From Gemmatimonadota bacterium (GTDB lineage: Bacteria; GCA-2686955), in the NCBI GenBank assembly GCA_002686955.1, contig NYZA01000008.1, positions 1-38,524 of the forward strand: a stretch of 38,524 nucleotides of DNA, in the 5' to 3' direction. The position numbers and the translations under genes were made by a program. The notes beneath the pieces were generated by a model. The model was not told where the DNA came from and did not search any database. It worked only from the letters and a program-made list of their open reading frames with translations. The stretch's first letter is position 1. Each line of letters begins with the position of its first letter. This document shows, piece by piece, positions 2,680 through 38,524 of the stretch.

Positions 2680-3780
2680 CTACTTGCTGCAGGTCATATG
2701 CGCCACCTCGTGGCAGACCTTGATGATCCTTCCCACCGGATTCGGCACACCACGTCGATGGAACACCTTATAGCAGGAGCTTCGATGTTCACGGACATTG
2801 AGCGTAGGGCAATCCCCCAACCCGGCGCATTCACCGAGCTCGGCCGGGGGTAGGCCTTGGTAAGGACAATCGGACACGAGTTCGTAGGGGCAACGGACAT
2901 CCTGCTCGACGGTTATCCATCCGACGCATCTGCAGATCGGCGTATATACGCATACTCCGTTCTCGCAGCTAACCTCGGTGCAATCGTTGCCGTCATCACA
3001 GTCGCCACATATCTTCGAAGACGACGGTGAGCTCCGGTCCTCTTCCGAGGACAAGCTGCGCGGTGCCGTACTTGGTGCTCGACAGCCAGCGAATCTCGTC
3101 CTCGAATCCGCTGGGGATTGTTCGCGCCAGGAACGTGACGGGCACGTCCTCCTCCCACGGATCCGGTGGAGTCACCTCGACATCGTATATCTCGAAGTCG
3201 ATCACCGCGGGAGCCTCCATGGGGCCGGTCTCTACCAAATGTGATCCCACCTCGTTGAATTGGAATGTGCCGCGAGGCCCGGCTCGATCGTGCGTAACGC
3301 CATCCATTCGCCACTCCAGCAGAGGCTCGAAACCGGCAGGGCTCGTGGCGAGACCAACGCGAATTGTCCGGTCCGTAGATGTAGCGTAGTGATCCGGGCC
3401 AAGATCGGTCAGCGGAGCGATCGATTCCTTTCCGAAGTAATAGCGCATGGTCTCTCCGTTCGAGGAGTTTTCGTCCAGCTCGACTGAATCCACCGACACA
3501 GACCCGATAAGGACTTCGATTTCGTCCGCGGCGAAATCGGTGATATCGAATGTGACCTTGTCGCGCCAGGCGAAGCTCTCCCCGGTCACGTTGACCCCCG
3601 CCTCGATCGTGCCGGGAGCCTCCGATTCCACTCGAGCGACGGCGACGAACGAGTCTCGATAGAGCTCTTCCGCTCCGCTCCATTCCACCTCCAGATCGGG
3701 CGGAACCTGCAAGACCAGAATCGGGTCCGAGTCGCCCGGGAAGGATGTTCTCGCCGGGACGGGACGAACGTACTCCGTCA
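2680..3780 (-). pseudogene. Secreted Cys-rich protein, truncated and frameshifted
   Basis: Two minus-strand frames join at about 3000-3015. The upstream frame (about 3780 to 2996) encodes a beta-rich, extracellular-looking sequence with Ig-like character (VTFDITDFAADEIEVLIGSV) and ends GPELTVVFEDMWRL. The downstream frame (to 2680) opens with KICGDCDDGNDCTEVSC and carries many cysteines, a pattern common in secreted proteins of Myxococcota and Planctomycetota. GAAGATATGTGGCGACTG is read in both frames at the join, so one base gained or lost would fuse them. The 5' end is also missing: beyond about 3781 the sequence belongs to a murB relic on the other strand. The function is unknown. Confidence 0.55.
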
Positions 3781-3783
3781 GTC

Positions 3784-3927
3784 TGGGGCAAGCACGCGAA
3801 CTACTTCGTGAACCACGGCGAAGGCACATCAAGGGAGTTCCTCGAGCTTATGGAAGAGGTGCAGATGCGTGTGGCGGCGGAGTTCCACGTCAAGCTGGAG
3901 CCCGAGGTCAAGATCTGGGGCGATTAG
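3784..3927 (+). pseudogene. murB 3'-end relic (UDP-N-acetylenolpyruvoylglucosamine reductase C-terminus)
   Basis: The last 47 codons read WGKHANYFVNHGEGTSREFL, then LELMEEVQMRV, and LEPEVKIWGD before the stop. The HAN-(F/Y)-x-VN-x-G block, the ALMEEVRxRV-like helix and the final LEPEV(R/K) strand are the standard C-terminus of MurB, the NADPH-dependent reductase that makes UDP-N-acetylmuramate. The rest of the roughly 300-residue enzyme, including the FAD-binding part, is absent. The sequence starts abruptly where an unrelated minus-strand gene is cut. A working murB must lie elsewhere in the genome. Confidence 0.7.
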
Positions 3928-4044
3928 GAGCCTGCGCACCGAGGGACCGTGCGGGTTCGTCGCGCGGTCGTTGCCTTGGGCGTGGCGGGGGACGTAACCT
4001 CGCGTGCCCTCTGTGCTCACGCCACGACTTCGATAGGACCTCCC

Positions 4045-6591: not shown

Positions 6592-6758
6592 CTAGGAGCC
6601 TGTTGCGCATAGTCTTCGCTTCGCCCAGCATCCGTCTTCGTTTCGATCTCTGCGTCGCTAAGTCCTTGAAAGGCAACCAGCCTTCCCGCGGACCCAGCTC
6701 CTTGATCTCGAAACGAACCCGAACACTGGGCTCGAAAGCCTATGCGCAACAGGCTCCT
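6592..6758. repeat. MITE-like palindromic element
   Basis: The unit is bounded by perfect 18-bp inverted ends: aggagcctgttgcgcata at 6594-6611 and its complement at 6741-6758. The interior is imperfectly self-complementary (TTCGTTTCGA facing a complementary block near 6707-6719). It encodes nothing. The same sequence begins again at 38446 and runs off the window, with one visible substitution in 79 bases, so it is a dispersed, recently moved or gene-converted family. Its size and structure fit a miniature inverted-repeat element mobilised in trans. Confidence 0.75.
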
Positions 6759-8325: not shown

Positions 8326-9525
8326 CTATAGCGACGAATCGGTCACCCGCTCCGGAATTCGGATCCTCAGACAAACAAAGAAACCCGCGACCGCGATCGC
8401 GCCGGCGAGCAGAAATACCCAGCGAAAACCGTAGCTTTGCCAGATGTAGCCCGAGAGTACCGGCAACGACATTGCGACGAGATGATCGACCGTGATCCCC
8501 ATAGAGATGGTGGGAGTGATGTCGTCGGGGGTGTCGGCGATCTTTCGCAGGTAGGTGGTGCGGGCGACACGCAGGGCGAAGAGGACCGAGTCGAATATGT
8601 ACGCAACGTAGAGGGCATAGAGGCCGACCTCCGGACCGAGCAGATCGGTGGCGAAGGCGTAGACCAGGCAGACACCGAGAAGGAGCAGCTCGTCGGCGGC
8701 GAGCACGGTTCGTTCGCCCAGGCGGTCGATGACCTCGCCGAGCAGAGGACGCATCACTACTCCCAGGGCGGAAGCGACAAAATAGAGCAGAGCGATGGTG
8801 CTCACCGGCACGCCGTTCAGCTCCACCAACACCCACCCGCCGAAAACAAGAAAAATCTGTTTGCGGATCCCGAAGAGGGCGCTCACGGCGTAGAAGAGCG
8901 AGTATTTCCGCTTCAGGACGATGCGTCGAGATCGGCCGTCGCCGCGCCCGACGTGCAGGCTCGCGTAAAATATGCACGCAAGCCCCGCGCTTGCCGCCGC
9001 CACCGCGTAGAAGAGGTCGAAACGGTCGCCGAGTAGCTTGGCCAGGGCGTAGATCAGCCCGACGCCGAGAATGGTGCCGAGGTTGCGGGCGCCGCCGAAT
9101 TGGCCGAGTCGCCGCCCTTCGCGCCCGTCGCGGGCCAGCTTGAGCCCGATCGGTCCCTCGACGGCGAAGATGACGTGGTCGCCCAGAGACCAGATGACGA
9201 TGAAGACGACCACGGCGGAGGTGGAGGGGGAGAGATAGCCGAGTCCGAGCGAGCCGATCGCGACGAAGAGCATCGCCAACGCGGCCATCTGGGTCTCGCG
9301 CAGCACCAGGAGCAGCAGGCCGACCACCGCGATCATCAAGAAGCCCGGCAGCTCCCTCGGAAACTCCAGCGCCCCTCGCGCCAGCGCGTCCAGGCCGTGG
9401 ACATTGGCGAGGTAGTTGTTCAGGGTGGCCATGAAGATGCCGGTCGCCGCCCCGAAAAAGAGGGTGGCGATCAGCGCGCGCTCGAGCTCGCGCCGGTGGC
9501 GGGGCGGCGGGGGAGGGGCATCCAT
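8326..9525 (-). CDS. Major facilitator superfamily transporter
   Basis: The product is 399 aa with about twelve hydrophobic segments. Residues 18-195 form the first bundle, from FFGAATGIFMATLNNYLANV to FDLFYAVAAASAGLACIFYA. A basic cytoplasmic loop follows (GRGDGRSRRIVLKRKY), then the second bundle. The loop RLGERTV after GEVIDRL resembles the MFS motif A position in the second half. The substrate is unknown. The first residues are Pro- and Arg-rich and cytoplasmic, as expected. ATG 9525 is used; a longer frame starting at 9544 is out of phase. The gene stands alone, between decayed sequence and an 850-bp gene-free stretch. Confidence 0.85.
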   Translation of the reverse strand: MDAPPPPPRHRRELERALIATLFFGAATGIFMATLNNYLANVHGLDALARGALEFPRELPGFLMIAVVGLLLLVLRETQMAALAMLFVAIGSLGLGYLSPSTSAVVVFIVIWSLGDHVIFAVEGPIGLKLARDGREGRRLGQFGGARNLGTILGVGLIYALAKLLGDRFDLFYAVAAASAGLACIFYASLHVGRGDGRSRRIVLKRKYSLFYAVSALFGIRKQIFLVFGGWVLVELNGVPVSTIALLYFVASALGVVMRPLLGEVIDRLGERTVLAADELLLLGVCLVYAFATDLLGPEVGLYALYVAYIFDSVLFALRVARTTYLRKIADTPDDITPTISMGITVDHLVAMSLPVLSGYIWQSYGFRWVFLLAGAIAVAGFFVCLRIRIPERVTDSSL

Positions 9526-9847
9526 GAGCGGCGGATGCTATCACGGTGCTTCTGGGTCACGGGATCGGCCCGATCGCGTTGCGGACGGGATGCGTGCCCG
9601 CGAGTTATTGCTCCGCCGAAGCTCGACGAGCATCGATCATGGCCTTTTTGTCGCGCGCGCGTTGAAGCTGCGCGCTGCCGCGGCGTTCAAACCGTCCTGA
9701 CGCCCCGGCGGGGTCGAATTGCACCAGTTTTTCCTGGCGCGGATATTGCGCCGGGATCCGGTTGCCTGTTGGCGGAACGGAACGGAGGCCACGAAGCTCC
9801 CAGAGAGCGAGGAGCTTCGCTCAGGTGGAACCGTCGAGGACGACTCG

Positions 9848-9876
9848 GCCCGGGCCCGTGTTGGGCGGACCCGGGC
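9848..9876 (+). terminator. Possible rho-independent terminator
   Basis: GCCCGGGCCCG pairs with CGGACCCGGGC across a seven-base loop, with one mismatch in eleven. It is followed on the plus strand by TCCGTTCGTTTT. No plus-strand gene is seen just upstream, so it would end an unseen transcript or be fortuitous. Confidence 0.35.
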
Positions 9877-10201
9877 TCCGTTCGTTTTGGGCGCCGGGTG
9901 GGGACAGGTTCACGATTCCAGGAGGCGGCGAAGAGGAGGGGGAGGACGGAGTATTGACCTGCCGGTCGCCGCCATTTCTATGCCAGGCAAACCCAGCGGC
10001 TCCGCTCCACCGAACGCGGCGCTCTGAATGCCCGCGAAGCTGGTCGGCCAGGCGCGCCCCACCACACGCTGATTGCGCGTCGTGTTCGCTTGGTCAGCAA
10101 CGCTTTGGCGGATGGACCCAACTTGCGGAGCGAATCTCAGCCTTGCTATCCAGAATGCGCGATCGAGCGACAGTACACGCAGGTCATCGAATTGGGTTGG
10201 T

Positions 10202-10227: not shown

Positions 10228-10373
10228 GGGGACATTGTGGGTCGGATCGGTTGATTCGGAACTAGATGCACAGACCATCACGCATCTCAGTGGGAGAATT
10301 GTGCTGCTCGTACCATGTCCTCGGTGTTTTTTCGGTCATCCAACGGCGGGAGCAAAGCGCGGCGATACGAGTA

Positions 10374-11120
10374 TCAGTACTCGTGCCCTTCCTTTCGCGC
10401 ACGATCTCCGGCCTCCCAGAGCAGCGCCCCCTCGAGAAAAGCCGCGAAGCCGCGCCGCCGCGCCGCGTGAATCCCGGCCCCCGCGAGAAGCCCCCTGATC
10501 AGCTCCGCGATTGGATGCGACACCAGTGCCCGGAATCCGGCTCTCTTCCCTTGCGCCAGATCCGCCGCGGCGCGCTCCCTCGCCTTTGCGAGCAGCCGCT
10601 CCACGTCGAAGAGGGGCGCCGGCTCCGATCGGCCCGGCTCCGGCGTCGGAGTCCGCCGCCACAGATCGATCCACTCAGTGGCCGCCGACCTAGGCCCCGC
10701 AGAAGAGGCTCGGAGCATCGGAAGACAGGTCGGCGCGGGCTGGGGAGGATCGAGCGCCAGCAGGAAGCGCCAGGGTGAAGGGAGGCGAAGCGCGGTCCGG
10801 AGCAGGTGTCCGCCGGCGCGGGCGCCCCGGGTTGCCAGCTCGATCGTCTCTCGGGCGATTAGTCGTGGCCGTTCAGCCGTCGAGGGCGGCTCGGAATAAA
10901 CGACGACGTCCCATTCCACGCGGAGGAGATCGGAATCGGCTTCGAGAGGAAGAGCCTCGATTCGATCGATGATCGGAAAAGAGGCGAGGGCCTGCTCCCA
11001 CTCCCGCGCGGTGAGAAAAGAGATCGACGCCGAGGGGAAACGCACACCGAGCGACGCCGCGACCGGCAAGAGGTCGCGGATCGCATCGGGGTCGGTGGTG
11101 GCGACGAGGAGGATCCGCAT
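10374..11120 (-). CDS. Glycosyltransferase-like protein, unassigned
   Basis: The product is 248 aa. The N-terminus (MRILLVATTDPDAIRDLLPV, then SISFLTAREW and a WDVVVYSEPPS strand) resembles the Rossmann-like first domain of glycosyltransferase family 9 or related LPS enzymes. The C-terminus (LIRGLLAGAGIHAARRRGFAAFLEGALLWEAGDRA) looks like the amphipathic tail found at the end of bacterial family 2 glycosyltransferases. The middle is Pro- and Arg-rich and matches neither. At 248 aa it is shorter than typical family 9 enzymes (about 340), so it may be degenerate or a distinct family. It begins 21 bases after the stop of the lipoprotein gene and is likely in the same transcript. Confidence 0.5.
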   Translation of the reverse strand: MRILLVATTDPDAIRDLLPVAASLGVRFPSASISFLTAREWEQALASFPIIDRIEALPLEADSDLLRVEWDVVVYSEPPSTAERPRLIARETIELATRGARAGGHLLRTALRLPSPWRFLLALDPPQPAPTCLPMLRASSAGPRSAATEWIDLWRRTPTPEPGRSEPAPLFDVERLLAKARERAAADLAQGKRAGFRALVSHPIAELIRGLLAGAGIHAARRRGFAAFLEGALLWEAGDRARKEGHEY

Positions 11121-13554: not shown

Positions 13555-15704
<2,150 letters not shown>

Positions 15705-24613: not shown

Positions 24614-26215
24614 CTAATCGGCCCTTTTGTCGAGCTCTCGCCGAATCGTCCGAAGCAGCTCCATATTCGCGTACGGTTTCGAGAGGAAGGGGTACCCTTT
24701 CTCCTCGATAAGGCGTAGCTGAAGCTTGTCGTCCATGTAGCCGCTGGTCAGGAGCACGTAGAGCTCCGGATTGATCGCGCGGAGTCGCTCCGCCAGATCG
24801 AGACCGGTCGTATCGGCTAGAATCATGTCGCTAAATAGAAGATCGAAGGCATCGGCTTCTTTTTCGAAGAGCTCGACCGCATCGGCCGCATTCGCCGCCG
24901 ATTCGACATGGTAGTTGTTCTCGGTCAAAATGCGCTCGCTTATCTCGCGGATCTCGGAGTGATCTTCGACGAGCAAGATCCGCTCGCCTTTGCCACGGGG
25001 CTTCTCCAAGTTCAACTGCTCCTTCGACGGTTGCCGAGGCGCGGATTCGACGCTCGGAAGGTAGACGCGGAATAACGAGCCCCTTCCCGGTGTGCTGGAG
25101 ATCGATATCGAGCCCTCATGCTTCTTTACGATTCCATAGACGACCGAGAGCCCGAGGCCGGTCCCTTTCCCCAACTCCTTCGTGGTGAAATAGGGCTCGA
25201 GGACTCGATCGAGTGTCTCTTCGTCCATGCCCACTCCGGTGTCCTCGGTCGAAAGGCAGACGAAATTGCCGGGCTGGGCGTCGGGATCGAGGCGGCATTC
25301 CGCCTCGGTCAGAACTACGTTGCTGGTTATGATCGTAAGGCGACCGCCTCGAGGCATTGCGTCTCTCGCGTTGATCGCCAAGTTCATTACGACCTGTTCG
25401 ATCTGGCCTCGGTCGACCCGCACCGATCGCAGGTCCGGATCGTGGTTGTGAACGACCTCGATGTCTTCGCCGATGAGGCGGAGCAGGAGGCTCTCCATCT
25501 CGGCCAGAAGGGAGTTCAGATCGAGCAAGACGGGACTTACGATCTGTTTGCGACTGAACATCAGGAGCTGGCGGGTGAGATCGGCCGCGCTGTTGCTGGC
25601 CTTTCGGATCTCTTGCGTATCTTGGTGGAGGCGCGTGTTCTCTTCGAGCCCGTGCAGCAGAAGATCGCTGTAGCAAGAGATGACGGTCATCAAGTTGTTG
25701 AAATCGTGAGCCAACCCGCTCGCGAGCGTGCCCACGGCTTCGAGCCGCTGGGCATGTCGGAGCTGCTCTTCGCTCCGGTGCAGCGCCTCTTCAGCCTGCC
25801 TTCTCTTGGAGATATCGCGCACGTGCAGCAGGATCGCGGCCTTGCCGGCGTATTCGATCGGGCGGGTTCTGAGCTCGACGGGGATCGGCCCCCGGTCCGC
25901 CGCGAAACTGAATCCCTCGACTCCGTCCAGCTCACCCTTCGCGAGTCGGGGAAATTCACGGGAGACCTCGTCGCGGGCCTCTGGCGGCACCAGATCGAGC
26001 ACATGCTTGCCCACGAGCTGATCCCGCGTCATGCCATGGAGCCGGCACGCTTCGGTGTTGACATCGAGAACGTAGCCATCGGTGTCTTCGACGAAGATCG
26101 CGTCGGGAGAGCTGTCGAAGAGAAGACGAAAGCGTTGCTCGAGGGCGTCGATCTCGCTCCTCTTTTTGGGCGCTTCATTCGGGACATTCTCGATCGGCAT
26201 GATCGAGAACATCAT
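24614..26215 (-). CDS. Soluble hybrid histidine kinase (PAS, kinase, receiver)
   Basis: The product is 533 aa from ATG 26215. No membrane segment is seen. A PAS domain (about residues 24-135, SSPDAIFVEDTDGYVLDVN and HVRDISKRRQAEEAL) leads to the dimerisation helix with the phospho-acceptor H170 (LASGLAHDFNNLM). The ATPase has an N box (NLAINARDAMPRGG), G1 (DTGVGM) and G2 (GKGTGLGLSVVYGIV). A C-terminal receiver (about 409-533) has ILLVED, the phospho-acceptor Asp near 463 (SDM) and the FLSKPY lysine. It is the last gene of the minus-strand row that starts with the beta-helix gene, 22 bases after the 181-aa gene, so a shared signal is likely. No cognate DNA-binding regulator is adjacent. Confidence 0.93.
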   Translation of the reverse strand: MMFSIMPIENVPNEAPKKRSEIDALEQRFRLLFDSSPDAIFVEDTDGYVLDVNTEACRLHGMTRDQLVGKHVLDLVPPEARDEVSREFPRLAKGELDGVEGFSFAADRGPIPVELRTRPIEYAGKAAILLHVRDISKRRQAEEALHRSEEQLRHAQRLEAVGTLASGLAHDFNNLMTVISCYSDLLLHGLEENTRLHQDTQEIRKASNSAADLTRQLLMFSRKQIVSPVLLDLNSLLAEMESLLLRLIGEDIEVVHNHDPDLRSVRVDRGQIEQVVMNLAINARDAMPRGGRLTIITSNVVLTEAECRLDPDAQPGNFVCLSTEDTGVGMDEETLDRVLEPYFTTKELGKGTGLGLSVVYGIVKKHEGSISISSTPGRGSLFRVYLPSVESAPRQPSKEQLNLEKPRGKGERILLVEDHSEIREISERILTENNYHVESAANAADAVELFEKEADAFDLLFSDMILADTTGLDLAERLRAINPELYVLLTSGYMDDKLQLRLIEEKGYPFLSKPYANMELLRTIRRELDKRAD

Positions 26216-26237
26216 GACACAGCGTTCTACTCTCGGG

Positions 26238-26783
26238 CTAGTCAAGCTCCGTGAGGAGCTTGCGGGCGCGCGGCTCGAGATCGCCCCTGATCGCGCCCAG
26301 CAGCTCGCGAGCCCGCTCGTTTTCGTCGCGTCCCAACTCGGCATGGGCCAAGAGCCAGAGGTAGAGCTCCTGTTCGCCGTGCTCGGCGATCAGAGCGTCG
26401 AGCCTCTCCTTCGCCTCATCGTAGACGCCGTTTCCGAGGAGCGCGACGGCTTCTTCGAGGCGCGAATCGGCCTGTTGCGCCTGCCCCGATGCCCCACCGC
26501 GCAACACCGCGGCGGCTGGGACGGGCATGAGCCGGTCCCCGATTCCGTCGATCAGATCGTCGATCCAACCCTGGAGGCGGGCGCGGATCTCGGCGTTGCG
26601 GGCGCTCCTCTTCGCCCGGATGGCCACCCTTTTCATCCGCTCCGCGACCTCGTCCGGATCGAGTCCCACCGATCGCAGCTCCGCCGCGGCATCGAGCTCC
26701 TCATCCGGTTCAGTCTCGGCAAAAGCGCGTCCGAGTCGTTTCGCCAGCTCGAGGTCGTTCATCGAGGATCGGTTCTCGCTCAT
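26238..26783 (-). CDS. 181-aa cytosolic protein coupled to the sigma-like gene
   Basis: No family is recognised. The N-terminal half (ELAKRLGRAFAETEPDEELD, VGLDPDEVAERMKRVAIRAK) is helical and charged. Residues about 95-108 (AAAVLRGGASGQAQQADS) form a small-residue linker. The C-terminal half (LEEAVALLGNGVYDEAKERL, YLWLLAHAELGRDENERARELL) looks like TPR helices. The ATG overlaps the sigma gene stop by four bases (26780-26783), so the two are made together. A partner or inhibitor of the sigma-like protein, possibly a target of the TPR-CHAT protease, is a hypothesis based on gene order alone. Confidence 0.7.
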   Translation of the reverse strand: MSENRSSMNDLELAKRLGRAFAETEPDEELDAAAELRSVGLDPDEVAERMKRVAIRAKRSARNAEIRARLQGWIDDLIDGIGDRLMPVPAAAVLRGGASGQAQQADSRLEEAVALLGNGVYDEAKERLDALIAEHGEQELYLWLLAHAELGRDENERARELLGAIRGDLEPRARKLLTELD

Positions 26784-27397
26784 GATGCGCTCACTCCCGT
26801 TCCGACTCGCAGCGCGACCCTTCTCAGGCGTTTCAGGCGGTTGTTGATCTCCGATACGCTCACGCTCAGCTCGGCCGCCAGATGGCGGGGCCGTTCACCA
26901 CAACCTCGGCCGATTGCGTCGATGATCATCGCGAGCTCCGGCTTGTCGTGCACAGCGTCGCGCAGCTCTTGAATCCGTCGTGTCTCGTGGGCTCGCTCTT
27001 CGTTTCGAATGAGCTCGACCTCGGGGTCGGCGGATTCCGTCGTGTCCGCAGAGCGGATCGCCAGCCTCTCCTCCGACTCGGCGCCATCTGGCCCGGTTGG
27101 AGGCCGGATCTCGTGTTGAGCCGCTGAGCGCCGGTAGAGGTGGCCCATCTCACTTCTTACGACCCCTTTCAAAAAGAGGAGCAGGTCCGGCTGTCGTTCC
27201 GGAGCCCAGCATCGCTCTCCCGTCCAAACTTTGCGGATCGCGAGAGATGCTACGTCTTCGGCAGCCATACCGAGAGCGATCGTGTCGGTCGGACTCGCTC
27301 CCCAGCGATAACTTCTGGCGAGGTAGGCGGCGTAGCCCACGAGCTGCACGCCGACCCGAGCCCAGTCGGTTTTCTCAAGCCTCTCGGCCACTTCCAT
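26780..27397 (-). CDS. RNA polymerase sigma-70-like (ECF-type) factor
   Basis: The product is 205 aa from ATG 27397. The first half (YAAYLARSYRWGASPTDTIA, then MAAEDVASLAIRKVWTGERC and LLLFLKGVVRSEMGHLYR) has the helical pattern and polar/aromatic spacing of sigma region 2. The last 55 residues (MIIDAIGRGCGERPRHLAAE, LSVSVSEINNRLKRLRRVAL) are a helix-turn-helix like sigma region 4. The two are joined by an acidic linker. It is divergent from well-known ECF groups, so the call is moderate. It begins 14 bases after the beta-helix gene without a clear ribosome site, which suggests coupling, and overlaps the 181-aa gene. Confidence 0.65.
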   Translation of the reverse strand: MEVAERLEKTDWARVGVQLVGYAAYLARSYRWGASPTDTIALGMAAEDVASLAIRKVWTGERCWAPERQPDLLLFLKGVVRSEMGHLYRRSAAQHEIRPPTGPDGAESEERLAIRSADTTESADPEVELIRNEERAHETRRIQELRDAVHDKPELAMIIDAIGRGCGERPRHLAAELSVSVSEINNRLKRLRRVALRVGTGVSAS

Positions 27398-27411
27398 GCG
27401 GACCGCGGTTT

Positions 27412-29223
27412 CTAGTTCGGGTTGTTGAAGGAGATAGCCGGGAGCGGTTCTTTTCTTGCCGCCGATTCGGTGCCGACCTCGGGAGCGGCCGCGGTGCCGC
27501 AGGGGGGAAGGTGGAAGGCGGGAGTGCCGACCATCCACCAGTCACCGTCTTGACCACCGTATGCCCCCATGTCGGGCAGGCAGGTGTTGGTATCGGAAGG
27601 GGTGCACCAGAAGTCGATTCCGAGATTGGCCAGGCCGCACCAGTTGATGGCGTCTTCGGGATCGGTCGGGTCGGCCGAGTCGATGGTAGGCGAGAGTACG
27701 TCCGGAACGTACTCGTAATCGGGCAGGGCCGGGCTTTGCCAAACCGGAACGATATCGATATTTCCGGTGCCTGGGAATCCGCCCTCGATGTCGCTGTAGT
27801 CGGCGAGCGCTACTCCGGCCGCTACATCGATCTCGTTGCCGGTGTTGCTGTAGAGGATGCTGTTGTTGATCGTCGCGACCGACAACGTTCCATCGACGTA
27901 GAGAGCGCCGCCGGCGAATTGCGCCTGGTTCTCGACGATCGTGCAGTGTTGAATGGTCGGGGAAGAATTCTCGGCAAGTATGCCGCCGCCGGCACCCGCG
28001 GACTCGTCGAGAAAAGCGACCGAGTTCGAGTCGATGATGCAGCTCACCAGGGTGGGCGACGAGGAGGCCAAGGCCGCGATGCCACCGCCCGATTGGGCGG
28101 TGTTGTGCGCGATTCGTGTTGCGATCACCACGGGGTTTCCGCCGGAGCACTGGATCCCGCCACCATTCGCGACGAGATCCGACGTGACGTCGTTTCGCTC
28201 GACTTCGCAACGGAGGATAGTGGCGTCGGAAAGGCCGAGGTGGATCCCACCGCCCCCTTTTTCCGCTTCGTTGTTGACAACGGTCGAGAACCGCACCGTT
28301 CCGGGGGTGTTGAAGAAGTTGATTCCGCCGCCGGTATTACCCGCTTCGTTGCTGAAGATGTCGCACGCGGTGATGATGGTGTTCGGCGTGGAATGCACCC
28401 GAACGCCTCCCCCGAATCGATCCGCGACATTGTTCTTGATCTCCGTTCTCGTGACTCGGAGCTTCGTCAGATCGATGCCGATGATGCCGCCGCCGTCCTT
28501 GTCGGCATGGTTTCCGAGGATTCGCGATCTTGAGATGACCAGCGAGCTCGCGCTGTCGCCGTATGCCGCTCCCCCGCTCAGCTCGGCCGAGTTCCCCGCG
28601 AGGGTGCAATTGCGTAGAGTCAGCGAGGACGATTGAGAGACGTGGACCGCCCCTCCTCTACCGGTTCCGGAGGCTTCCGCCGTCGCCGAGTTTCCCGTCA
28701 GAAGACAGTCGACGAGGGTGGGGGCCGCGCCACCCCGGCTGGCGACCGCTCCACCGTCTTGGGTGTTGCTTGCCCCAATCCGGCAATTCTCGAGAACCGG
28801 CGCGGTGCCGACGCAGACCACCGCGCCTCCGAATGGGGCCCCTCCTGTTTGTCCCGGGCCTCCACCCCGTCTTAGCGAGAGACCTCGCATTTTCGCTCCC
28901 GGCCCCTCCCCCTCGTCGATGGCGGCGATCCGGGTGGTATCCGCGGCATCGATCACCGTCGCATTGCGCACGACCGGATTCAGAGGCTCGATGCTCTGAA
29001 CCACCACCTCCTTGCCGCGAAACGACAGATTCACGTTGCCCGGACCCATATAGGGTGAGGCCACGCTGTCGACCACCACGGTGTCGCCGACGATCGCGGC
29101 GGCGTCGATGGCTGCCTGAATGGTGTTATAGGGCGAGGGGACATTGAGCACGGCGGCGGGTGCGGAGGTGGCCGCCGTGAGGATCGAGATCGCCAGGGTC
29201 AGGCGTGTGCTGAACATCGACAA
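27412..29223 (-). CDS. Secreted right-handed parallel beta-helix protein
   Basis: The product is 603 aa. A signal peptide (FSTRLTLAISILTAATSAPAA) is followed by the typical start of such proteins, VPSPYNTIQAAIDAA. About fifteen beta-helix turns follow, each near 22-25 residues, with recurrent GGGI, NSA and CTIVENQA-like motifs (residues about 100-490). A C-terminal part with WCGLANLGIDFWC and CLPDMGAYGGQDG is common in exported proteins of Planctomycetota and FCB bacteria. The TTG at 29223 has GGAG seven bases before it; ATG 29217 is the alternative. It has no visible catalytic motif. It is the first gene of the sigma / 181-aa / kinase row. Confidence 0.88.
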   Translation of the reverse strand: MSMFSTRLTLAISILTAATSAPAAVLNVPSPYNTIQAAIDAAAIVGDTVVVDSVASPYMGPGNVNLSFRGKEVVVQSIEPLNPVVRNATVIDAADTTRIAAIDEGEGPGAKMRGLSLRRGGGPGQTGGAPFGGAVVCVGTAPVLENCRIGASNTQDGGAVASRGGAAPTLVDCLLTGNSATAEASGTGRGGAVHVSQSSSLTLRNCTLAGNSAELSGGAAYGDSASSLVISRSRILGNHADKDGGGIIGIDLTKLRVTRTEIKNNVADRFGGGVRVHSTPNTIITACDIFSNEAGNTGGGINFFNTPGTVRFSTVVNNEAEKGGGGIHLGLSDATILRCEVERNDVTSDLVANGGGIQCSGGNPVVIATRIAHNTAQSGGGIAALASSSPTLVSCIIDSNSVAFLDESAGAGGGILAENSSPTIQHCTIVENQAQFAGGALYVDGTLSVATINNSILYSNTGNEIDVAAGVALADYSDIEGGFPGTGNIDIVPVWQSPALPDYEYVPDVLSPTIDSADPTDPEDAINWCGLANLGIDFWCTPSDTNTCLPDMGAYGGQDGDWWMVGTPAFHLPPCGTAAAPEVGTESAARKEPLPAISFNNPN

Positions 29224-29382
29224 AGGGTTTCTCCAGCTATGGGACTGAACCCACCACTATAACGGATAGTCATGGCAGCTGACCCCTGGACCATCGACCG
29301 GAATGATGAGGGATGTAGCGACCCTCCTCGGCTGCGGCGTCGCGGCGCGGGGGAACGAGACGGAGATGGGGTATCGTTGACC
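29224..29382. promoter_or_regulatory. Divergent intergenic region, beta-helix operon / TPR-CHAT gene
   Basis: About 160 bases separate the two starts, so both promoters must lie here. ACTATAAC at 29256-29263 offers a -10-like box on either strand (TATAAC or TATAGT). No convincing -35 box is found at 17 bases, which would fit recognition by an alternative sigma factor. Confidence 0.3.
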
Positions 29383-32300
29383 ATGCGATTCGAGCAGCTG
29401 CTGGAACACGACGCCGCGGGAACGCTGGCGGACCGTGTGGGGCGAGAATGGACCGAAGCAGAGCCCGCTTTCTACGCCGAAGTCGCCGAGGCCTCCCTCC
29501 TGGCAGCGGAGAGTGTGCAACAGCTAGCGAGAGGGATCGGCGGGTGCTGGCCCGGCGTGCCCGAGCCGATTCGTGCGGTGATCGATTCCGATCCCGATCT
29601 GTCGTTTCCGGAGAACGATTCGCCGGCCGAGGGGGCGGAGCTGTACGACGCGATGATGCACTGGGAAGCATTGCAGCGGATCGAAGAGCTCCTCTTCGCC
29701 CATCTCGCGCGCTCGATCGCTCGAGCCTCGGACTGGCGATCGGAGCTGCTGGCTCGTGCCCTTCCCTCATTCGGAGGAGCGGACCCTCCCACCGCCGAGC
29801 TGGTCGCCGCGTTGGCGCTCGCCGATCCACTCGCGCGGCAGCACAGCGAGCGTCCTCTTGAGCTGGTCGAGTGGGTTCTTCGTTGCAAACCCAAGCCCTT
29901 CATTGCGCACAACGCCCGCTTGTTGTTCGCATATATCGGGCTGTTGCAGGGCCTTCCGGGTGATCTCGAGGAGATCCGTGCCTCGGTCGTGCGCCGTGCC
30001 CACCGCGGAAGGGAGCGAGCGCGGGCATACCTCGCATTCGGCCAACGGGTGATGTCGACGCGCGGCCCGGTCTACGCAATGCGCTTCGTTCGCCGGGCGA
30101 TTGTTGAAGCCTCGACCGTCAGGGACAGACGAACGGTCGGTCACGCCGCCCAGCTCCTGGCCCACCTGAGCGGCATCGCGGGGAACTACCCAGACGCGAT
30201 CGAGCTTTTCTCGGTCGCGCTCGCCCTTCATCGCGAGATCGGAGACCGTCGCATGGAGGGGATGACCCTCGGCGGGTTGGCGACCTTCACGGACGAGCAA
30301 GGCGATCCGAAAGGTACCCGAGAGAAGCTGGAGAGGGCACTCGCCATTCACCGCGAAGTCTTTAATCGGCGAAGCGAAGCCACCGCCTTGTGCAATCTGG
30401 CCATCATGAATCAGAGGATGGGCGACTCGACGCGAACTAGGGAGCTTCTCGAAGATGCCGTCGAAATATGTCGCGAGATCGGCGACAGGTGGACCGAGGG
30501 AACGACTCTGCTGAACCTGGCCGTGAATCTGCATCACGCCGGACGCTTTTCGCGGGCGCGAGAGCTCTTCGATTCGGCCCTGGCGATTCAACGAGAAGTG
30601 GGGCATCGCAGATTCGAAGGGGTCACGCTCCAGAACCTGGCGAAGCTACACCACCAGACCGGTGCTCCCGAGCGCGCAAGTTCCCTATTCGAAGATGCGC
30701 TCGCGATCTTCAGGGAGGTGGGCGATCGAACCAGTGAAGCCAAGACTCTGCACGAGCTTGCGGATCTGTTGCGTGACGAAGGCAAGAACGGACTTGCGCT
30801 CGAGCTGCTCGAACAAGCGCACGATATCCATCGTAGCGTGGGCAATGCCGTGGGAGAGGCACGCTCGCTGACATCTCTGGCGAAACTGAGGCAGGGGCTC
30901 GGAGATACCAGACGTGCCAGAGCGCTCTTTCGCCGGGCGCTTGGGATCTATAGGAAGATCGGCAATCCGAGAGGGGAGGGTACGGTTCTCGGAGACTGGT
31001 CGTCACTCGAGTTGGCGCTGGGGCGATCTCGGCGCGCGGCCGTGATGGCGCGCCGCGCCTGCGCGTGTCTGGAGCAGGTCGGCGACGCCGTGGCACTCGT
31101 CGATTCGCAACATATTTATGCTCGAGCGTCGCAAGAGATCGGCGATCTGGACGAGGCGGAGAGGCAGTACCGCCGAGCCGTGGACGGAGTCGAGGATTGG
31201 TTGCGGGATATCGGTGCCGATGCGCGCCGTTCTCGCGTTTTGGACCGATCCTTGCCGCTCTTTCGGGATGCCGTCACCTTTCTATTTGGGCACGCCGGCG
31301 ACCCTAGAGCAGCGTTCGAGATGGCGGAGCGGGCAAAGGCGCGATCGCTCCTCGAGTTGGTGCGCAACAAACAGAGGATCGAAGCCGTTCCAATCTCGGT
31401 TGCCGAGAAACGAACCGGGCTGGAGCTCCATCTGCGCACACTGCAAGATGCGTTGATCGAGGAGAGATCGTCTCCATCTCCTCGCGCGGGCATGGTCGTC
31501 TACCTGGAGGCGGAGCTGGAGAGGGTGCGTCGCGAACACGGCCGCCTTCTCGATGATTTGGCGCATTCCGATCCCGGATATGCGGTCGAAGAAGGCTTGG
31601 TGAAGCCGCTCGATCTGCCGCGAGTGCAGGAACGCGTCGTTGCCGCGGAGGACGTGGCCCTGCTGGAGTACTTCGTGGCCGGCGACGCGGTCCATCTCTG
31701 GATCGTGTTGAGGCGAGAGATGCATACGATAACACTCGATTGTGGCATCGACGAATTGCGGGAGCTACTTCAAAAGACGATAGATCCGATGGGCAACGAT
31801 CCGCCTCGGCTTCTGCGTCTCCTTCCCCGCGACCTGCGCCGCCTCGGCCGGTGGGTACTCGACCCCGCGCTCCCACATCTCCGAGCCGTGCGTCGACTTC
31901 TGATCGTCCCCTCGGGCCCTCTCCATAGGCTCCCTTTCGAAATGCTCGTGCTTCGTATGCCGGGCGAGGAGAACTGGAGCGAGGGCGCTGGGATCGACCG
32001 CTTCGCGGCGCCGGAGTACGCGGCCGACCGATTCGAGATCGCCTACGGTCCTTCGGCCACGCTGCTGGATCCCGCTCTGGGATCGGCGCCGAAAGAGGAG
32101 CGTAGAACTCCTGCCGTGCTGGCATTGGGAGACCCGCTGTACGAGCAGTTCGCCGGCACCGGATCGGAGGATTCGATGGTGCGTCTTCCAAGGCTGCCGG
32201 GAACAGCCGACGAGCTGCGCCATATACAGAAGAGCTTCCCCCAGAGCCGCGTCTTCCTTCGGGAGCAGGCCCGCGAATCGGTCTACCGGTGCCATGCGCC

Positions 32301-32775
32301 CGAGGCCGACATCATCCACCTGGGTTGTCACGGACTGGTCGACGGGGACGATCCCTCGTACGCGGGAGTCGTGCTTTCGGCAGGCGAAGGCAGTGCGGAA
32401 GACGCATGGCTACAGTCGTACGAAATCGCGGAGATCGGCTTGACGCGCGGCCCTCTGGTCGTGATCTCCGCGTGCCATGTCGCCGCCGGTCGCCTCTCGG
32501 GTGCCGAGGGACTTCTCGGCCTGAGCCGCGCCTTCATACAGGCCGGCGCGCGAATCGTCGTGGCATCGATTTGGTCGGTCGAAGATCGCGTGACCGTCCA
32601 CCTGATCGATCGTTTCTATCGTGCCCTCGCGACTGAGGGATGCGATGCCACCCGCGCCCTCGCCACCGCACGACGGGAGCATCTGGAAGCAGAGCGCCGC
32701 AATCCTCGCCTCGATCGAGCGGCACCCGGCTCGCATCCCTACTTCTGGGCGGGGTTTCGAGTGTTCGGGAGATAA
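29383..32775 (+). CDS. TPR-CHAT protease (caspase-like)
   Basis: The product is 1130 aa from ATG 29383; TTG 29377 is also possible. Residues 1-240 are a helical N-terminal part. Residues about 250-600 hold eight or more TPR units of 40 residues in a row, each with a G(D/N)RRxEG-L-NLA core (ALAIHREVFNRRSEATALCN, LFDSALAIQREVGHRRFEG). The C-terminal CHAT domain (about 745-1130) has the catalytic His in IIHLGCHG (H983) and Cys in VVISACHVAAG (C1031), plus GAEGLLGLSRAFIQAGARIV and the final YFWAGFRVFG. CHAT enzymes are cysteine proteases of the caspase/separase clan that cut after activation through their TPR part. No signal peptide is seen, so it is cytosolic. It diverges from the sigma-factor operon. 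Confidence 0.93.
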   Translation: MRFEQLLEHDAAGTLADRVGREWTEAEPAFYAEVAEASLLAAESVQQLARGIGGCWPGVPEPIRAVIDSDPDLSFPENDSPAEGAELYDAMMHWEALQRIEELLFAHLARSIARASDWRSELLARALPSFGGADPPTAELVAALALADPLARQHSERPLELVEWVLRCKPKPFIAHNARLLFAYIGLLQGLPGDLEEIRASVVRRAHRGRERARAYLAFGQRVMSTRGPVYAMRFVRRAIVEASTVRDRRTVGHAAQLLAHLSGIAGNYPDAIELFSVALALHREIGDRRMEGMTLGGLATFTDEQGDPKGTREKLERALAIHREVFNRRSEATALCNLAIMNQRMGDSTRTRELLEDAVEICREIGDRWTEGTTLLNLAVNLHHAGRFSRARELFDSALAIQREVGHRRFEGVTLQNLAKLHHQTGAPERASSLFEDALAIFREVGDRTSEAKTLHELADLLRDEGKNGLALELLEQAHDIHRSVGNAVGEARSLTSLAKLRQGLGDTRRARALFRRALGIYRKIGNPRGEGTVLGDWSSLELALGRSRRAAVMARRACACLEQVGDAVALVDSQHIYARASQEIGDLDEAERQYRRAVDGVEDWLRDIGADARRSRVLDRSLPLFRDAVTFLFGHAGDPRAAFEMAERAKARSLLELVRNKQRIEAVPISVAEKRTGLELHLRTLQDALIEERSSPSPRAGMVVYLEAELERVRREHGRLLDDLAHSDPGYAVEEGLVKPLDLPRVQERVVAAEDVALLEYFVAGDAVHLWIVLRREMHTITLDCGIDELRELLQKTIDPMGNDPPRLLRLLPRDLRRLGRWVLDPALPHLRAVRRLLIVPSGPLHRLPFEMLVLRMPGEENWSEGAGIDRFAAPEYAADRFEIAYGPSATLLDPALGSAPKEERRTPAVLALGDPLYEQFAGTGSEDSMVRLPRLPGTADELRHIQKSFPQSRVFLREQARESVYRCHAPEADIIHLGCHGLVDGDDPSYAGVVLSAGEGSAEDAWLQSYEIAEIGLTRGPLVVISACHVAAGRLSGAEGLLGLSRAFIQAGARIVVASIWSVEDRVTVHLIDRFYRALATEGCDATRALATARREHLEAERRNPRLDRAAPGSHPYFWAGFRVFGR

Positions 32776-38445: not shown

Positions 38446-38524
38446 CTAGGAGCCTGTTGCGCATAGTCTTCGCTTCGCCCAGCATCCGTCTTCGTTCCGA
38501 TCTCTGCGTCGCTAAGTCCTTGAA
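38446..38524. repeat. MITE-like palindromic element, second copy, cut by the window end
   Basis: It starts 25 bases after the selA stop and repeats 6592-6670 with one visible substitution, including the terminal aggagcctgttgcgcata. The other end lies outside the window. Confidence 0.85.

Follow-up and report, generated by a model that had tools for sequence, protein, structure and literature searches.

The DNA considered here (the window) is a stretch of 38,524 nucleotides, contig C8 of a MAG from a Gemmatimonadota bacterium (4.28 Mb in 270 contigs, 84.5% complete). On its plus strand, positions 29383 to 32775 encode a TPR-CHAT caspase-like protease of 1130 amino acids, which matches PF12770 at E=4e-56 and TPR_12 at E=2e-45. 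The His/Cys dyad that goes with the PF12770 CHAT domain is present, His983 lying in HLGCHG and Cys1031 in SACHVA; with the start at 29383, the numbering of this intact pair is exactly that of the original prediction. No signal peptide is seen.

Across a divergent intergenic region that measures 159 bases (29224 to 29382), an operon runs on the minus strand. It opens with a secreted beta-helix protein (27412 to 29223), which has a weak NosD match and a Sec-type N-terminus in its sequence. Then comes a divergent ECF-like sigma factor of 205 amino acids (26780 to 27397). A longer GTG frame is not its real start; the true start is the ATG at 27397, 14 bases past the beta-helix stop, and the sigma gene therefore does not overlap the beta-helix gene. 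Directly downstream is the partner, a 181-residue protein and proposed anti-sigma (26238 to 26783), which does overlap the sigma gene, by ATGA, as had been claimed. Last in line is a soluble PAS-HisKA-HATPase-REC hybrid kinase, assigned from domain matches (24614 to 26215, the latter being its likely start). These positions, domains and distances agree with those first given. Elsewhere in the window, a near-identical repeat of 79 bases occurs at 6592-6670 and 38446-38524; its second copy lies at the contig end, and the repeat may account for the assembly break. Direct repeats between 264 and 7943, some diverged and some near-identical, reach 187 nt and suggest duplicated genes.

Considered alone, the window sigma has no Pfam match, and its TIGR02937 score (E=0.0007) falls below the cut-off. 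The C245 paralogue described below lies just below the PF04542 cut-off, and a homolog in another genome (L052) lies above it. When a profile of the family is compared with the PDB, sigma-H, SigL and SigH are matched over region 2 or most of their length, and the best match is 2lvs, an HTH-region. One profile scan of genome contigs with the sigma alignment gave no match, and no relatives were found on plasmids or viral contigs.

The partner combines a conserved N-terminal helical domain (GLDP at residues 40-43) with TPR-like helices at the C-terminus. Between them is a linker rich in Gly, Ala, Ser and Gln, at about residues 84-107 (26463 to 26534, minus strand), which on its sequence is a candidate cleavage region. 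A low-confidence stretch at 81-101 in the single-sequence AlphaFold2 model falls at this linker; these models (pLDDT 43 for the sigma, 54.7 for the partner) are not good enough to search for folds. The partners showed no resemblance to any known anti-sigma domain.

Both genes occur three times in the MAG, each time side by side (on C8, C166 and C245). On C166 they are on the minus strand, the sigma at 9584-10192 and the partner at 8983-9573, with a CHAT gene at 13931-15124. On C245 they are on the plus strand, at 2715-3413 and 3410-3940, and a CHAT gene on the same strand runs up to 1680. All three pairs have a CHAT gene no more than ~5 kb away, in 4.28 Mb that hold only four CHATs. The fourth, on C187 (L013, 2785-9176), is a TPR-CHAT that keeps company with an S8 peptidase, an ordinary ECF sigma and a putative anti-sigma. 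The CHATs of C8 and C166 are 52% identical; for that of C245 the identity is 39-40%, and for that of C187 27%. Placed in a tree together with 79 relatives, the three linked CHATs group as a clade of their own (100/99), within which C8 and C166 are sisters (90/53), and C187 falls elsewhere. The sigma tree likewise makes C8 and C166 sisters (95/83) and does not resolve C245.

Is this arrangement chance? About 17 sigma genes are present in the MAG (15 PF04542 matches plus two of the special sigmas, which Pfam misses). Assuming independent placement and neighbourhoods of ~14 kb, a rough estimate gives a probability of about 1e-5 or less that all three pairs would lie near three of the four CHATs. 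A sigma would lie within 5 kb of any one CHAT with a probability of ~6%, and within 5 kb of all four with ~1e-5, again roughly and assuming independence. Duplication of the whole module would, of course, breach the independence in these estimates; the copies of sigma and partner are, however, just 28-37% identical. The linkage of CHAT to the sigma/partner pair is not chance, and the view that unrelated genes merely sit side by side, which might appeal to the CHAT-linked form being confined to one genome, is close to refuted already by these numbers and by the monophyly of the linked CHATs.

The hybrid kinase, originally proposed as the sensor, was not found at the C166 and C245 loci, and probably lies outside the core module. 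On C166, as in the window, CHAT and the secreted beta-helix gene point away from each other, and the two beta-helix proteins have only their first 100 residues in common (35%, E=4e-7). On C245 an LTD protein replaces the beta-helix protein, and a single strand carries CHAT, the secreted LTD protein, the sigma and the partner, in that order. Since so little of the beta-helix protein persists, a role as an exported, variable companion fits better than one as a target. The CHAT of C166 lacks its TPR part, which counts against the protease-release model, as does the finding that no promoter motif common to the paralogous intergenic regions rises above a shuffled control. Around the C166 copy (L004, 10819-16285) are degenerate duplicated CHAT fragments and repeats.

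Profile searches spanning 1181 genomes in all returned nine further loci, from other phyla, where a sigma has directly downstream of it a partner with the same N-terminal domain. A sigma profile built without the sequences of this MAG ranks its three sigmas at the top of 6797 ORFs (E=8e-23, 8e-22 and 2e-13). The corresponding profile of the partner N-terminus gives E=2e-6, 0.009 and 2.2 for the three partners, two of which are its best matches outside the training set. The C245 partner (E=2.2) is tied to the wider family only marginally, and this too counts against the protease-release model. The 12 sigmas, three from this MAG and nine from other genomes, form a clade apart from the ordinary ECFs sampled (99/95). 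The sigmas, and likewise the partners, are shown to have a common ancestry across both of the protease types that accompany them. Other sigma matches, including L121 and L123-L130, were set aside as ordinary sigmas or as having no partner match, and the family was not found in one other genome of the phylum.

Here, the second type of protease enters. At six of the nine loci (L052, L053, L030, L118, L119 and L122), the third gene is an M78 peptidase, and all six match PADLOC capP over their full length (4e-51 to 5e-58); one matches the solved CapP structure 7t5t at 1e-14. No CapP is present at the window locus, where CHAT stands instead. The partner family is modular, with a constant N-terminal helical region carrying L-x(2-3)-G-[LIV] and a variable C-terminal part that is, by eye, TPR-like, CapH-like or beta-rich. 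In two of the M78-linked partners the C-terminal half weakly matches CapH; the window partner has no capH match in PADLOC. At L053 (8573-12249, genome G471), genes for a BilC-like JAB protein and a BilD-like E1 protein lie directly upstream of the sigma, partner and CapP peptidase, so that the locus is apparently a Bil/Bub-like operon with a sigma-based CapP regulator.

At the remaining three loci (L054, L039 and L120), the third gene encodes a large protein. What these proteins have in common is an N-terminal domain (L039:8276-8924, L054:10995-11906, L120:11018-13723) that is uncharacterised and in which a G-x-S and a K-L motif are conserved; it is fused to nSTAND-WD40, to a membrane segment or to TIR. 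A Lon-like reading of this domain was not supported by a PDB profile or Pfam search. In L039, the presence of a broken TPR-CHAT ~3 kb away from the sigma may be chance. In L120, a 68-residue ORF (10258-10464) consisting of the partner N-terminal domain alone sits between the sigma and the full partner.

The original prediction called for a search for homologous neighbourhoods. For the sigma/partner pair they were found, at nine loci from other genomes; none of the loci of the 79 CHAT relatives, however, carries the family. The proposed unit of protease, partner and sigma is repeated and co-diverging three times in this genome, but its CHAT-linked form was found in this one genome only, which counts against the protease-release model. 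Sigma genes of other kinds are nevertheless frequent near CHATs. They occur at 39 of the 79 loci within the DNA fetched, and within 5 kb at 34; the loci come from named genomes, many of them Bacteroidota, and are hence not independent. Per 100 kb, sigma density is 17 within 1 kb of the CHAT, 6 at 1-2 kb, and ~1 beyond. They belong to the ordinary ECFs, and in several cases (L131, L143, L184 and L137) an anti-sigma-like gene comes next. CHAT beside ECF sigmas is thus common and partly described already. For ECF54, a review has proposed proteolytic control on the grounds of a conserved neighbourhood with CHAT and subtilase genes (PMC8999054), and there are published caspase systems that include an ECF sigma and TPR proteins (PMC8195603).

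How might the cassette work? Gene order, co-retention in three diverged copies, the common ancestry of sigma and partner, and intact catalytic residues are what we observe; binding, inhibition, cleavage, trigger and target genes are what we infer. In the cytoplasm, the 181-residue partner would use its conserved N-terminal domain to keep the sigma inactive. When a trigger reaches the TPR sensor of the TPR-CHAT protease, the protease would cut the partner, perhaps at the linker ahead of the TPR-like C-terminal part. The freed sigma would then direct transcription of its targets, among them probably the genes for the neighbouring secreted protein and for the protease. At the homologous loci from other phyla, CHAT's part would fall to a CapP-type M78 metallopeptidase. 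We give this scheme an even chance of being right. It is favoured because all three pairs lie beside CHATs that are monophyletic, with C8 and C166 sisters in both trees; because six of nine homologous pairs are followed by a CapP peptidase, and CapP cuts CapH (PMC13373217); because protease/anti-sigma/sigma triads are already known; and because sigma genes are enriched beside CHAT genes generally. Since one sigma/partner core stands beside either of two unrelated proteases, control of the sigma by a protease gains support; in our analysis, the swap of protease class is the strongest argument that the protease acts on the core.

Other readings use the same genes differently. The sigma and partner might regulate the cassette, with CHAT and the secreted protein as its outputs and the protease directed at some other target, with no control over the sigma. 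This is unlikely, if well worth weighing. In its favour are the 159-base divergent promoter region between CHAT and the operon, and the CHATs elsewhere that adjoin ordinary ECF/anti-sigma pairs. The genes of C245, however, are co-directional rather than divergent, and the same family lies beside CapP, whose known substrate elsewhere is an adjacent transcription regulator (PMC13373217). We consider it distinctly improbable that the partner helps the sigma, as a positive co-factor or a stabiliser, and that the protease ends the response by destroying this partner. The lack of resemblance between the partners and known anti-sigma domains would suit such a role, but Csx30, CalpT and CapH are all inhibitors that proteolysis removes (PMC10028731, PMC12751052, PMC13373217).

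It is less probable still that the sigma-like protein has ceased to be a sigma, and serves as a DNA-binding or adaptor protein in a conflict system. The window copy is indeed very divergent, with no Pfam match, and the HTH-region 2lvs is the top PDB profile match; against this stand the matches of the family to sigma-H, SigL and SigH, and the score of L052 above the PF04542 cut-off. The proteolytic release of a sigma from its partner remains our preferred reading. A broader version of it, to which we give somewhat less than even credence, is that a widespread core exists, undescribed as far as open papers show (a sigma-CapP description may have come earlier). This core would pair a divergent sigma with a partner having a constant, sigma-binding N-terminal domain and a variable C-terminal domain. 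It would be run by interchangeable proteases (a CapP-type metallopeptidase, a CHAT cysteine protease, possibly others), and would match, independently of CRISPR, the transcription switches built on Craspase and Calp. If true, release of a sigma by caspase-like or CapP-like proteolysis would be a general device, not a CRISPR speciality, and for the CHAT proteases, few of whose substrates are known, there would be predicted ones.

CapH and CapP are regulators that respond to DNA damage in CBASS, Bub and other immune operons; ssDNA is known to trigger CapP. The homologous loci resemble them in the CapP peptidase as third gene (six of nine) and in the two partners with weak CapH matches. They differ in that a sigma, and a partner with another N-terminal domain, replace the DNA-binding repressor; in the window, the protease itself is CHAT and not CapP. 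With ECF54-type ECFs, found beside CHAT or subtilase genes, the window shares the genetic linkage of CHAT to a sigma, and the C187 set appears to be of just that kind; the window sigma, unlike them, lies outside the ordinary ECFs sampled, and its partner is of another kind.

The resemblance to the type III-E Craspase is the one from which the original prediction started. There, Csx29 cuts Csx30, freeing CASP-sigma (PMC10028731). Here, likewise, a TPR-CHAT protease, a small regulator and an ECF-like sigma are adjacent. As had been noted for the window, however, no CRISPR part is visible: no array occurs in the C8, C166 or C245 contigs, and no Cas protein among the annotated neighbouring genes. 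Kinship to the type III-E parts did not emerge at the sequence level, where a PDB sequence search found no Csx29 and a profile made from 12 partners, run against PDB chains, did not retrieve Csx30; the window partner, moreover, has 181 residues versus 565. In the Lon protease system of type III CRISPR, CalpL cuts CalpT, freeing CalpS (PMC12751052). Its logic, release of a sigma by a protease that cuts the anti-sigma, is what we propose here, although the Lon-SAVED protease and cyclic-nucleotide trigger of that system are not seen. With a sigma/partner core that stands beside CHAT here and beside CapP elsewhere, the locus would add a variant to a known theme of protease, anti-sigma and sigma.
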